A stretch of DNA of 32,167 nt from a virus. The stretch's first letter is position 1. Every line of letters starts with the position of its first letter. Positions 12,387-32,083 of the stretch are shown here, one piece after another. The translations under genes were made by a program, and so were the position numbers. The notes beneath the pieces were generated by a model. It did not search any database. It was given only the letters and a program-made list of their open reading frames with translations, and was not told where the DNA came from. Location of the stretch: the IMG/VR virus record IMGVR_UViG_3300042868_002475, positions 1 through 32,167 of that record; one strand, 5' to 3'.

Positions 12387-12653
12387 ATGAAAATAAACCT
12401 ACAACTAGAGTTCAGTAACAAGCCAGGTGAGCCTCAAGAGGTAATCTGTCTAGCATCCGACATGGTAAAGTTCGAGTCAAAATTCGACCTTTCAGTTGCG
12501 AATCTAGGCAGCGAGCTAAAGATTACTCATCTTTTGTTCCTAGCTTGGGCAAGCCAAACACGCACTAAGGCAACCACTAAGTCATTTGATGAGTGGGTGG
12601 ATGAGGTAGAAAGTATTGCTGCCGCTGAAGACCCAAAAGCATCAAAGGGCTAG
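12387..12653 (+). CDS. Tail assembly chaperone, short form (gpG-like)
   Basis: An 88-residue protein read in the normal frame, rich in charged residues, in the classical place between tail tube and tape measure. These chaperones hold the tape measure protein during tail building and are not usually in the virion. Near its end, codons CCA AAA preceded by C form the slippery heptamer CCCAAAA at 12632-12638, in the correct phase. The frame ends at TAG 12651-12653. Ribosomes that slip back by one base make the longer product described separately. Identification rests on position and the frameshift site, since the sequence itself is poorly conserved in this class. Confidence 0.85.
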   Translation: MKINLQLEFSNKPGEPQEVICLASDMVKFESKFDLSVANLGSELKITHLLFLAWASQTRTKATTKSFDEWVDEVESIAAAEDPKASKG

Positions 12654-29157: not shown

Positions 29158-30292
29158 CTTAGAACCGGCACCAAGAGTAGAAACGCCTAAAGAGTATCGA
29201 CCTGCCTTTGAGTTTGACGGCAACGAAGGCTGGGCACAGCTACCAGCAACATCAGGCGTACCTAGCTTTGATGACTTCCTAACACAGCAGGGCTTCGACC
29301 CAGATGAGTTCGAGGTCACAGGAACACCACGCACATCACGCTGGCAACGCTATGACGGCGAGTGGCTATCGAGCTATCGGTTTACCTTCAGGCGAAGGGT
29401 TGCAAACCTTGACCTGCCATTGCTTTACTCACAAGCCAAGAAAGCCCACAAGCCTAAGAAAGAACTCAGAACAGATTCTGAAAAGGCTTTAGTTATTCTT
29501 TGGTCTGACTTACAGGTTGGCAAGGTTGACCACCGAGGCGGCATCGAAGCCATGATTGCCAGAGTCGAGGAAACAAAAGAAAAGCTAACTGCCCTGCTCA
29601 AAAAAGAAAAGCCAGCCAAGGTTATCTTTGTTGACTTAGGCGACACAGTAGAGGGCTTCGACAACGCAGGTGGCAATCAACTTCAGAGCAACGACCTTAG
29701 TCCAATGCAACAGGTAGACATCGCAACAACCCTAGCTTGGGATCACCTGAAGCTATTAGCCGGATACAGCGATGACATTACCTATGCCTCAGTTGGCTCG
29801 AACCATTGCCAATGGCGTGTTAGGGGTAAGCAGCAAGGAACACCAACCGATGACTGGGGTATTCACATCGGGCGCACACTTGCAAGGCTGGCAAAAGAAA
29901 CAGAGATGCCTATCAAGTTCTATGAACCTCAAAAGCATGACGAGTCTTTAGCCATAGACATCTTTGACGACCAGTTCCACATACTCGGTATCTGGCATGG
30001 ACACCAAAGCCCAAGACCAGACCAAGTGCCTACCTGGTGGAGACAGCAAGCCTTTGGTAAGCAGCCTGTTGGGGATGCAACCATCGGAGTATCTGGACAC
30101 TTTCATCACCTCAGAGTGCTAGAGCTTGGCTCAACATCAAGAGGGTCATCGCGCTTTTGGATTCAGGCAAGCACCATGGACAACGGCTCAGGCTGGTGGA
30201 GATTGCGCTCAGGCGAGGACTCAGTGCCAGGCTTAGTTACCTTTGTGCTTGACAAGGGCGTTGACTTCACCGGTACTGTTTACAAGCTGTGA
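29147..30292 (+). CDS. Calcineurin-like metallophosphoesterase
   Basis: A 381-residue protein. The N-terminal 110 residues are an extension of unknown fold (VPSFDDFLTQQGFDPDEFEV, RWQRYDGEWLSSYRF). The metallophosphoesterase core shows the expected blocks in order: SDLQ (D121, Q123 in place of the usual His), GDTVEG (D166), GSNH (N219, H220), HGH (284-286) and GHFHH (318-321). Such enzymes hydrolyse phosphomono- or diesters with two metals; MRE11/SbcD-like nucleases belong to the superfamily. The phage substrate is unknown, perhaps DNA ends or nucleotides. The start is GTG at 29147, overlapping the HTH-like gene, and its stop overlaps the methyltransferase GTG (GTGA). Confidence 0.85.
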   Translation: MLDNLEPAPRVETPKEYRPAFEFDGNEGWAQLPATSGVPSFDDFLTQQGFDPDEFEVTGTPRTSRWQRYDGEWLSSYRFTFRRRVANLDLPLLYSQAKKAHKPKKELRTDSEKALVILWSDLQVGKVDHRGGIEAMIARVEETKEKLTALLKKEKPAKVIFVDLGDTVEGFDNAGGNQLQSNDLSPMQQVDIATTLAWDHLKLLAGYSDDITYASVGSNHCQWRVRGKQQGTPTDDWGIHIGRTLARLAKETEMPIKFYEPQKHDESLAIDIFDDQFHILGIWHGHQSPRPDQVPTWWRQQAFGKQPVGDATIGVSGHFHHLRVLELGSTSRGSSRFWIQASTMDNGSGWWRLRSGEDSVPGLVTFVLDKGVDFTGTVYKL

Positions 30293-30921
30293 CCCTAGAC
30301 CTACACACGCAGGGATTCCTAGATGCCTTGGCTCGCATAGATGAAAGAAAGAAGAAAGGGAAAATGAAAATCGGCAGCTTATTCAGCGGTTACGGCGGTC
30401 TTGACTTAGCTGTAACAAAGCTGACAGGTGCTGAGGTTGCTTGGCATTGTGAGTGGGAAGATGCACCAAGCCAGATACTTGAGGCACACTTTCCAGGCGT
30501 TCCAAACTACCGAGATGTTAGCAAGGTTGACTTCACCCAAGTTGAACCTGTTGACATACTCACAGGCGGCTTCCCTTGTCAGGATTTATCTCTGGCAGGT
30601 AAGCGAGCAGGATTACAGGATGGGACTCGCTCAGGCTTATGGTCAGAGTTCTACCGAGCAATACAAGAAATAAAACCAAAGCTAGTTGTCATCGAAAATG
30701 TTAGGGGTTTACTAAGTGCAAAAGCCAACAATGGTATGGAATACACAGATGAAGTATTGGGAACACTCAACGGAAAGCCAGCTCTTAGAGCTATCGGAGC
30801 CGTTCTTGGGGACTTGGCAGACATCGGGTACGATGCTCGATGGTCAGGTGTACGAGCTAGTGATGCCGGAGCAGCCCACCAAAGATTCAGAGTCTTTATC
30901 ATTGCCTACCCCAACAGTTAG
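30289..30921 (+). CDS. C5 cytosine DNA methyltransferase, catalytic N-terminal part (motifs I-VIII)
   Basis: A 210-residue protein with the catalytic half of a C5 cytosine methyltransferase: motif I SLFSGYGGLDLA (AdoMet binding), motif IV GGFPCQDLSLAG with nucleophile C97, motif VI IENVRGLL (E136, N137), and motif VIII GAAHQRFRVFI. It then stops at TAG 30919-30921, before the target-recognition domain and motifs IX-X, which are encoded in the +1 frame by the next gene. Start is GTG at 30289 (GTGA overlap); ATG at 30364, after GAAAGGGAAA, is an alternative that keeps motif I. Alone it should be inactive. It resembles the alpha subunit of split enzymes. Confidence 0.85.
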   Translation: MTLDLHTQGFLDALARIDERKKKGKMKIGSLFSGYGGLDLAVTKLTGAEVAWHCEWEDAPSQILEAHFPGVPNYRDVSKVDFTQVEPVDILTGGFPCQDLSLAGKRAGLQDGTRSGLWSEFYRAIQEIKPKLVVIENVRGLLSAKANNGMEYTDEVLGTLNGKPALRAIGAVLGDLADIGYDARWSGVRASDAGAAHQRFRVFIIAYPNS

Positions 30922-31591
30922 TGATCAGTACACAGCTAACCTTTCAAGCACACAGCAAAAGCCAGGCTCAATGCACTCAGTCACGCTGGCTCAGGTATTC
31001 CATAAGCCTGACCTATTCCCAACACCAACTACAAGGGATTACAAGGATGGCTCAGAGCCACACGAGAGAGATGGCAAGGTGCAGACAGACACAGTAGCCA
31101 GAGCAGTATTCAATAGCGGTGAGGTATTACTTGGCACACCAAGAGCTAATGCTGCCAACTCATCAAGCAAGCAAGTAGAGCTAGGCGCACCTAAAGCTCG
31201 GATTGAGGATCAAGTCAAGATGTTACCCACCCCACTTACAACGGATTACAAAGTAAACAATTCGCGAGGTGCTTGGAATCGCAAAGACCCTGGCTTAGGT
31301 ACTATGGTTCATCACACCAACTGGGGTAAGTTCGAGCCAGCCATAAGACGATGGGAAGCAATAATTGGCAGACCTGCACCAGAGCCAACCAAGCCAGACG
31401 GCAAAGAAGGAAACCATAGGCTCTCATCCAAGTTTACAGAGTGGATGATGGGACTACCTGACGGCTGGATAACAGACATCGGACTAAAGCGTAACGATGA
31501 GCTGAAAGCCTGTGGCAACGGAGTAGTGCCTCAGCAAGCAGAGTTAGCCCTTAGCTTGCTAGGCATCAAGGAAATACTAGAAAGAAACTAA
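30863..31591 (+). CDS. C5 methyltransferase C-terminal part: target recognition, motifs IX-X
   Basis: Reads in the +1 frame relative to the catalytic part. From ATG 30863 it gives 242 residues (MPEQPTKDSESLSLPTPTVSD...); the frame is open back to GTG 30716. It contains repeated LPTPTVSD/FPTPTTRD/LPTPLTTD segments, a variable target-recognition region, then KFTEWMMGLPDGWITD (motif IX area) and ACGNGVVPQQAELAL (motif X), which completes the AdoMet fold. It therefore supplies what the upstream protein lacks. Overlap is 59 bases from ATG 30863. Either a natural beta subunit or the rest of a gene broken by one base. The start has a weak SD. Confidence 0.7.
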   Translation: MPEQPTKDSESLSLPTPTVSDQYTANLSSTQQKPGSMHSVTLAQVFHKPDLFPTPTTRDYKDGSEPHERDGKVQTDTVARAVFNSGEVLLGTPRANAANSSSKQVELGAPKARIEDQVKMLPTPLTTDYKVNNSRGAWNRKDPGLGTMVHHTNWGKFEPAIRRWEAIIGRPAPEPTKPDGKEGNHRLSSKFTEWMMGLPDGWITDIGLKRNDELKACGNGVVPQQAELALSLLGIKEILERN

Positions 31592-31764
31592 TGCCTACAT
31601 ACGATTACAAGTGCAAGACCTGTGACCTCAAGATGTCTGTCATAAGAAAGATAGACGAGCCGGATAGAACACCACTCTGTGCTAACTGTGTCAAAGACTT
31701 AGTGAGAGTGTACGACCCACCAGCAGTAACCTTCATGGGTATCGGATGGGGTAAGGATGGGTAG
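31591..31764 (+). CDS. FmdB-like zinc ribbon protein, 57 aa
   Basis: A 57-residue protein with the FmdB/CxxC-ribbon layout: MPTYDYKCKTC at the start, a second CANC at about residues 30-33, and a PAVTFMGIGWGKDG end that matches the Pa..FkGsGWY..d tail of this family. Two CxxC pairs bind one zinc. FmdB family members are listed as putative regulators in bacteria, and short copies are widespread in actinophages next to HNH genes. Its ATG overlaps the methyltransferase stop (TAATG), and its end overlaps the HNH gene by eight bases. Confidence 0.8.
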   Translation: MPTYDYKCKTCDLKMSVIRKIDEPDRTPLCANCVKDLVRVYDPPAVTFMGIGWGKDG

Positions 31765-32083
31765 GTTCCCCAAGCCCTGCCTTATCTGTGGCGAACTAAC
31801 AAAAGGTTTAAGCAGATGCGAGACACATCAAGCTGAGTGGCAGGCGGTAGAGAACATAAGACTTAAAGAGATGAAAGCAAAACGACCAAACCTTTACGAT
31901 AATAATTACCGGAGGAGGGCTAGGGGGGTAAGGGAGGCGGCGGTGTATTGTCACCTATGCGGTGAACCAGCAAGACCAAATGATCCTTTTACAGCAGACC
32001 ACCTCATTGCCGGAGATAAAGAAAGCCCATTAGCTGCCGCCCATAGGTCCTGTAATAGCCGTAGAGGTAACAAGCCCCTATGA
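31757..32083 (+). CDS. HNH endonuclease, probable packaging-associated
   Basis: A 108-residue protein with an N-terminal zinc-like CLICG...CETH and a C-terminal HNH core: CHLCG at about 65-69, FTADHL with the catalytic His, and AAAHRSCNSRRGNKPL with the ending C-N..R-x-x-G typical of phage HNH nucleases. Genes of this type usually lie directly before terS; here the terminase is at the other end of the window, which fits a circular map. In HK97, the HNH protein gp74 is needed with the terminase for cos cutting. ATG at 31757 overlaps the FmdB-like gene. Confidence 0.88.
   Translation: MGRFPKPCLICGELTKGLSRCETHQAEWQAVENIRLKEMKAKRPNLYDNNYRRRARGVREAAVYCHLCGEPARPNDPFTADHLIAGDKESPLAAAHRSCNSRRGNKPL

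Follow-up and report, generated by a model that had tools for sequence, protein, structure and literature searches.

The stretch of viral DNA analysed here, which we call the window, comprises the 32,167 nt of IMG/VR virus record IMGVR_UViG_3300042868_002475 (positions 1-32,167), and it carries on its forward strand two overlapping genes, named here α and β, with the second being read in the +1 frame relative to the first. The features of this locus are the following:

30289..30921, + strand: α gene, predicted catalytic part of a C5-methyltransferase with motifs I-VIII, ending in TAG with an adjoining TGA
30703..30707, + strand: AGGGG, Shine-Dalgarno-like, 8 nt before the β GTG and within the ENVRG codons of α
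30716..30718, + strand: GTG start codon of β, directly 3' of an in-frame TAA (30713-30715)
30716..31591, + strand: β gene in the +1 frame, with an N-terminal domain, four LPTP cassettes and motifs IX-X
30716..30921, + strand: dual-coding overlap of 206 nt, α codons 143-210 (motif VIII region) and β residues 1-68
30734..30844, + strand: N-terminal signature of β, W-N...W ... W-x-x-S-G...G, LGDLADIGYDARW, overprinted on α
30902..31015, + strand: cassette 1 (family 41), LPTPTVSDQYTANL..., a family found at position 1, 2, 3 or 4 in other arrays
31016..31129, + strand: cassette 2 (family 43), FPTPTTRDYKDG..., 26 copies at positions 1-4, its start repeated at 31223
31130..31222, + strand: cassette 3 (family 22), LGTPRANAANSS..., 24 copies at positions 2-5
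31223..31321, + strand: cassette 4 (family 52), LPTPLTTDYKVNN..., 3 copies at positions 3, 4 and 6
31322..31363, + strand: conserved WGKFEPAIRRWE block 3' of the array, nearly invariant in all β proteins
31418..31468, + strand: motif IX region, RLSSKFTEWMMGLPDGW, near-invariant across relatives
31505..31561, + strand: motif X region, KACGNGVVPQQAELALSLL, near-invariant across relatives

The α frame opens with a GTG at 30289 that shares bases with the upstream stop (GTGA), and the ATG at 30364 may be the likelier start, given that most homologues begin there. Motif I was located at 30373-30411, the PCQ of motif IV at 30565-30600, the ENV of motif VI at 30685-30708 and motif VIII at 30877-30909, so that these four motifs, by which a C5 cytosine DNA methyltransferase is recognised, all lie in the single frame ending at 30921, as the earlier note had read it. 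In profile searches, α matched Pfam DNA_methylase (PF00145, E 1.2e-37) over positions 1-163 of 324, that is, over the first half only, and it also matched TIGR00675 (dcm) above the cut-off and PHROGs 363 and 116 (E 3e-67 against phrog_363), while PADLOC returned generic methyltransferase matches only. The recognition region and motifs IX and X had been placed in the +1 frame, and there they were found, within a frame open from 30716 to 31591 and beyond the point where the PF00145 match stops. The β protein has relatives in IMG/VR at 60-80% identity and matches phrog_1008, “DNA methyltransferase” (E 4e-56), with no Pfam or NCBIfam match in the profile searches and none from PADLOC. Judged from their sequences, α and β together are a C5 cytosine methyltransferase, with its catalysis, dimerisation and specificity remaining inferences.

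The start of β is an internal one. The GTG at α codons 143/144 is kept in 63 of 84 split loci (defined below), with AGGGG or AGAGG ahead of it in 59 of these 63, and the codon of α Arg139 is AGG or AGA in 78 of the 84. As for the 21 split loci without this GTG, in 17 its place is taken by an in-frame ATG that lies six codons further upstream without an intervening stop, and the remaining 4 have other upstream starts. We infer that β initiates inside α, probably coupled to the translation of the latter.

The conservation of this arrangement was followed through about 110 distinct α loci gathered from IMG/VR and phage records, where a locus was taken as split when α ends at most 60 nt after motif VIII. 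Eighty-four distinct loci are split in this way, and wherever motif IX/X could be read in them, it was nearly always in the +1 frame. Cultured phages keep the split as well: two overlapping methyltransferase genes are annotated in the Arthrobacter phages Andrew (43/44) and ArV1 (067a/067b), in the Mycobacterium phage Phanphagia (65/66) and in GigiOuiOui (65/66), and in the Arthrobacter phage Jinkies (L163), β is annotated as “DNA methylase” with α present, unannotated, in the 400-nt gap upstream. A scan of bacterial genomes added 80 loci, all with actinobacterial record titles among those listed.

When bacterial, phage and IMG/VR loci were classified together, three layouts were obtained, which we call split, nested and partly fused. 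In the nested layout (41 loci), motifs IX-X are in the α frame and the cassettes are in a +1 ORF wholly inside α. Substitutions between motifs VIII and IX of nested loci number 2934, 1164 and 1005 at α codon positions 1, 2 and 3, and the split loci have the same pattern (952, 358 and 309); because these substitutions fall on the third positions of the +1 frame, the nested cassettes are translated in that frame. The α frame nevertheless stays open through the cassettes in 41 of 41 nested loci vs. 8.1 expected. In L051, L052, L056, L057 and about 37 more, it runs open for 300-1000 nt through the +1 cassettes before reaching IX-X, and this stretch looks like non-functional filler. In the partly fused layout (19 loci), most cassettes are in the α frame (substitutions 313, 187 and 448), yet 14 of the 19 retain a +1 ORF containing the WPxSG motif, vs. 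0.3 expected from synonymous resampling, and many of these +1 ORFs also carry a first cassette. The common denominator of all layouts is, then, an out-of-frame subunit that starts inside α, upstream of motif VIII. We also considered the “fused” relatives as simple intact ancestors and rejected the idea, since most of them are nested, with their cassettes in the +1 frame and only IX-X in the α frame. One natural fusion, L013, whose α is 92% identical, carries both halves in a single chain and, therefore, these halves work together and can act as one chain; the separation of the two is not indispensable, given that L013 and the fused-type loci place cassettes in the α frame.

From all of this, we consider it very probable that the overlapping genes α and β encode a heterodimeric C5 methyltransferase of the M.AquI type, although there are no data on expression, complex formation or activity. 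Such a phage-borne two-subunit enzyme was the first of the possibilities raised in the earlier note, and it is the one that the comparative evidence supports. A second possibility raised there, that a programmed +1 frameshift somewhere along the overlap (near CCC AAC, for instance) yields a single polypeptide with α alone as a minor product, we regard as unlikely. It has in its favor that a shift at many places along the 206-nt overlap could yield a fusion, that fusions such as L013 exist in nature, and that the false positives of PRFect in SEA-PHAGES genomes include methyltransferase genes (PMC10885494). Nevertheless, no shift site is apparent, the C-terminus and the stop of α vary among relatives (3-60 nt past motif VIII), the N-terminal 60 residues of β, which precede any late shift, show conservation at the protein level, the internal start with its Shine-Dalgarno-like sequence is conserved too, and the nested relatives would need two shifts instead of one.

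The overlap itself provides the remaining support for two genes. At the join, the same bases do read as AYPNS in α (30904-30918) inside LPTPTVSD in β (30902-30925), as had been remarked; the overlap then described is real, but its extent was understated, for it reaches over the 206 nt from 30716 to 30921. When the α codons of the window were resampled synonymously, the +1 frame was left open in 0 of 200 resamplings, and over codons 144-209 it is open in 84 of 84 split loci vs. 3.4 expected (39 of 39 vs. 2.4 after clustering at 80% nucleotide identity). Loci collected with α alone are likewise all open, 67 of 67 vs. 1.6 expected, or 28 of 28 vs. 0.7 when clustered at 80% nucleotide identity, and for this reason the openness of the +1 frame is not a product of having searched for β. 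In parallel, the synonymous conservation of α rises from a ratio of 1.22 upstream to 1.77 in the overlap (P = 3.6e-10), with peaks at L176, I179, G180 and R189, where β reads W-x-x-S-G and E-L. On the side of β, W8, W15, G38 and G43 are invariant, and N9, W34 and S37 are conserved at 90% or more (62-66 β sequences). The synonymous constraint and the invariant W8, W15, G38 and G43 lead us to conclude that the N-terminal domain of β is overprinted on motif VIII, a feature missed in the earlier note; both reading frames are, by these sequence statistics, conserved and under selection.

It might still be argued that β is real but starts downstream of the overlap, the +1 signal being a by-product of α conservation and codon bias, and for this there is the strong conservation of the α motif region itself, as well as the presence of the +1 motif in loci whose cassettes are in the α frame (the 14 of 19 mentioned above). 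We find this very hard to sustain, because after synonymous resampling W-x-x-S-G...G appears in only 0.3-0.8 loci per group vs. 14-29 observed, because the openness in all 84 loci far exceeds the 3.4 expected, and because the invariant W8 and W15 fall outside the conserved α motif. Lastly, a sequencing or assembly error (the single wrong base of the earlier note) or a decaying pseudogene is practically ruled out, for even though a one-base change would look alike in one contig and the poly-G of some relatives is error-prone, the split is shared by 84 distinct loci and by the genomes of cultured isolates, both frames are under purifying selection, and the window gene has no long homopolymer.

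The two genes being, as we hold, separate halves of a heterodimer, the mechanism that we propose, in which separate translation, in-trans assembly and methylation are all inferred, would be as follows. The α subunit, with motifs I-VIII, would be the AdoMet-binding and catalytic half, and β would be made independently from the GTG within α, in the +1 frame. The N-terminal domain of β, overprinted on motif VIII, would be its probable docking part on α, and β would further contribute the exchangeable recognition cassettes, set in a row, and motifs IX-X. With several sequences thus marked on the phage DNA, host restriction might be escaped. In a structure model of the fused L013 protein, the catalytic core is predicted with confidence and finds a match in M.HhaI (Foldseek E 3.6e-13), the cassettes being at pLDDT below 50, and β modelled alone (mean pLDDT 57.5) is poor except for the N-terminal hairpins and the C-terminal helices, the N-terminal signature being modelled as small β hairpins at pLDDT of about 61-76. 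Given the low model confidence of β alone and of the L013 cassettes, a target-recognition domain fold is not demonstrated.

The recognition region, which the earlier note had treated without noticing its repeats, is a cassette array. In the window, β carries four “LPTP” cassettes of 31-38 residues each, and 68 complete arrays contain 225 cassettes, grouped into 56 families by average linkage (single linkage merged cassettes) and arranged in 55 architectures that vary in position and number. No family occurs twice in any array, compared with 7.8 of 55 expected, and zero was never reached in 5000 shuffles. Loci with α 93-98% identical to that of the window have different arrays, and when they are aligned with it, identity in the flanks is about 86-95%, and the array aligns only in patches. 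These sequence comparisons show a recognition region built of modules that are being exchanged, and it fits the definition of a multispecific methyltransferase in having several exchangeable tandem recognition modules. The cassettes, which have no match to a curated family beyond PHROGs, are probably exchangeable target-recognition domains, and each may read one target, an inference from the non-redundancy of the arrays and from the multispecific enzymes of Bacillus phages. An extra LPTP cassette of the PTVSDxxT family is also found 3' of motif X in L027, L041, L089, L105, L120, L123, L150 and others, a place in which a C5 enzyme would not be expected to have a recognition domain.

Homopolymers set several relatives apart from the window. 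Runs of at least 8 G/C occur at 0.187 per kb inside the methyltransferases of the family vs. 0.023 outside them, that is, eight times more densely, and 26 of 27 such runs are G on the coding strand. They are placed at the cassette boundaries: at the α/β junction, between cassettes, and before the extra cassette 3' of motif X, with G7-G12 tracts at the junction in L010, L013, L037, L137 and L195/L198, and after motif X in L039, L043, L089-L091, L105, L108, L120, L150 and L185/L190. In IMGVR_UViG_3300042154_000539, the junction is present at both contig ends, identical over 106 and 99 nt except for G9 vs. G11; the G9 form leads α straight into the cassettes, and the G11 form leaves them out of frame. 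Similarly, the cassette after motif X is in frame in L185 (G9) and out of frame in L173 and L190 (G10), with near-identical flanks, and a G13 tract is found in this same region in the record of a bacterial isolate, Saccharopolyspora kobensis (L276). What identifies a phase-variable methyltransferase, an in-frame homopolymer of variable length, is therefore met in relatives but not in the window, whose gene (30289-31591) has no G/C run of 7 or more and no A/T run of 8 or more. These length differences suggest phage-encoded phase variation in the relatives, with the reservation that homopolymers are where assemblies of metagenomes can be trusted least.

The window phage probably infects an actinobacterium living in water, one of the Microbacteriaceae or related to them, as deduced from its terminase, which is closest to that of Pontimonas phage phiPsal1 (54.8%). 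No C5 methyltransferase is annotated in the stretch of phiPsal1 that was examined, and for this reason the gene pair looks like accessory cargo. Downstream of the methyltransferase and near the contig end are an FmdB-type zinc ribbon protein (31591-31764) and an HNH endonuclease (31757-32083), the latter probably the packaging-associated one, since the first genes of the contig are the terminase; in L006 and L009, the distance from β to the zinc-ribbon gene is 1.4-1.6 kb longer than in the window. Elsewhere in the window, before the tape measure gene (13496), there is a typical tail-assembly chaperone at 12387-12653, whose reading probably slips near CCCAAAAG into the -1 frame, which extends to about 12806; a sequence resembling a terminator, GCCCCCGAAAGGGGG-T, comes next, and all of this is ordinary.

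Taken more widely, actinobacteriophages and prophages may possess a C5 family in every member of which, be it split, nested or partly fused, the catalytic gene carries the overprinted recognition subunit, the cassettes being shuffled between phages and, in many members, switched by poly-G slippage between fused, separate and out-of-frame forms, amounting to a phase-variable, multi-specificity self-marking; we put this forward tentatively, giving it somewhat less than even weight. Cassette shuffling, together with the poly-G of the relatives, would make the escape of the phage from host restriction rapidly switchable. A natural split methyltransferase with a long conserved overlap, one of its halves being overprinted on a catalytic motif, is also a case for studying how two domains share DNA, and the pairing of a separable recognition subunit with cassettes that can be interchanged hints at a natural toolkit for programming cytosine methylation, for which the split C5 enzymes have so far been engineered. 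On the practical side, annotation pipelines overlook or mislabel one gene of the pair, as with the α of Jinkies, and the annotation of PHROG 1008 (β) and PHROGs 363/116 (α) mentions neither the overlap nor the division between catalysis and recognition.

The multispecific C5 methyltransferases of Bacillus phages (SPR, phi3T, rho11) are single chains whose variable region contains recognition domains of about 40 residues each in a row; these domains are exchanged between phages and serve self-protection. The likeness, noted here without sequence comparison, lies in that row, which in the actinobacteriophages is on a separate out-of-frame subunit. Another out-of-frame, GTG-started ORF inside an actinobacteriophage methylase gene has been described in ShiLan in 2025 (PMC11855218), but there the inserted ORF is a homing HNH endonuclease, whereas the hidden ORF described here, β, belongs to the enzyme proper; an overlapping recognition subunit goes unmentioned in the passages of that report consulted. 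In the Gordonia phages Bibwit, Sitar, Lennon, Keitabear and Ailee, annotated HNH/LAGLIDADG insertions break up the same methyltransferase, in agreement with that homing element (PMC11855218). In the open-licence literature, we found nothing on overlapping phage C5 methyltransferase subunits, nor on poly-G phase variation of phage methyltransferases.

Two split enzymes had been offered as analogues in the earlier note, and only one of them stands. In M.EcoHK31I (YGGCCR), the large subunit combines motifs I-VIII with the TRD and motif X, which leaves only motif IX to the small subunit (PMC3404938). It has in common with our pair, for which this is inferred, the need for two polypeptides in one C5 enzyme, but was rejected as the same split, β here having the recognition region, IX and X; the nested relatives come nearer to it in spirit, with a long chain containing IX-X and an out-of-frame helper, except that this helper carries the TRD. 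In M.AquI (CYCGRG), the large subunit has motifs I-VIII and the small one the distal variable region and motifs IX-X (PMC3404938), a split within the variable region much as between α and β, and this layout, with I-VIII in one gene and the variable region and IX-X in the other, is met here and kept in 84 loci. The kind of enzyme is thus already known. Nevertheless, the α of M.AquI holds part of the variable region, whereas here the whole recognition region is in β, and the phage pair, without its sequence having been compared with that of M.AquI, adds the N-terminal overprint of β on motif VIII and the multi-cassette array, besides being phage-borne and widespread in actinobacteriophages. New, as far as the searched literature shows, are the overprinting of motif VIII, the out-of-frame cassette array, the nested form and the poly-G variation.
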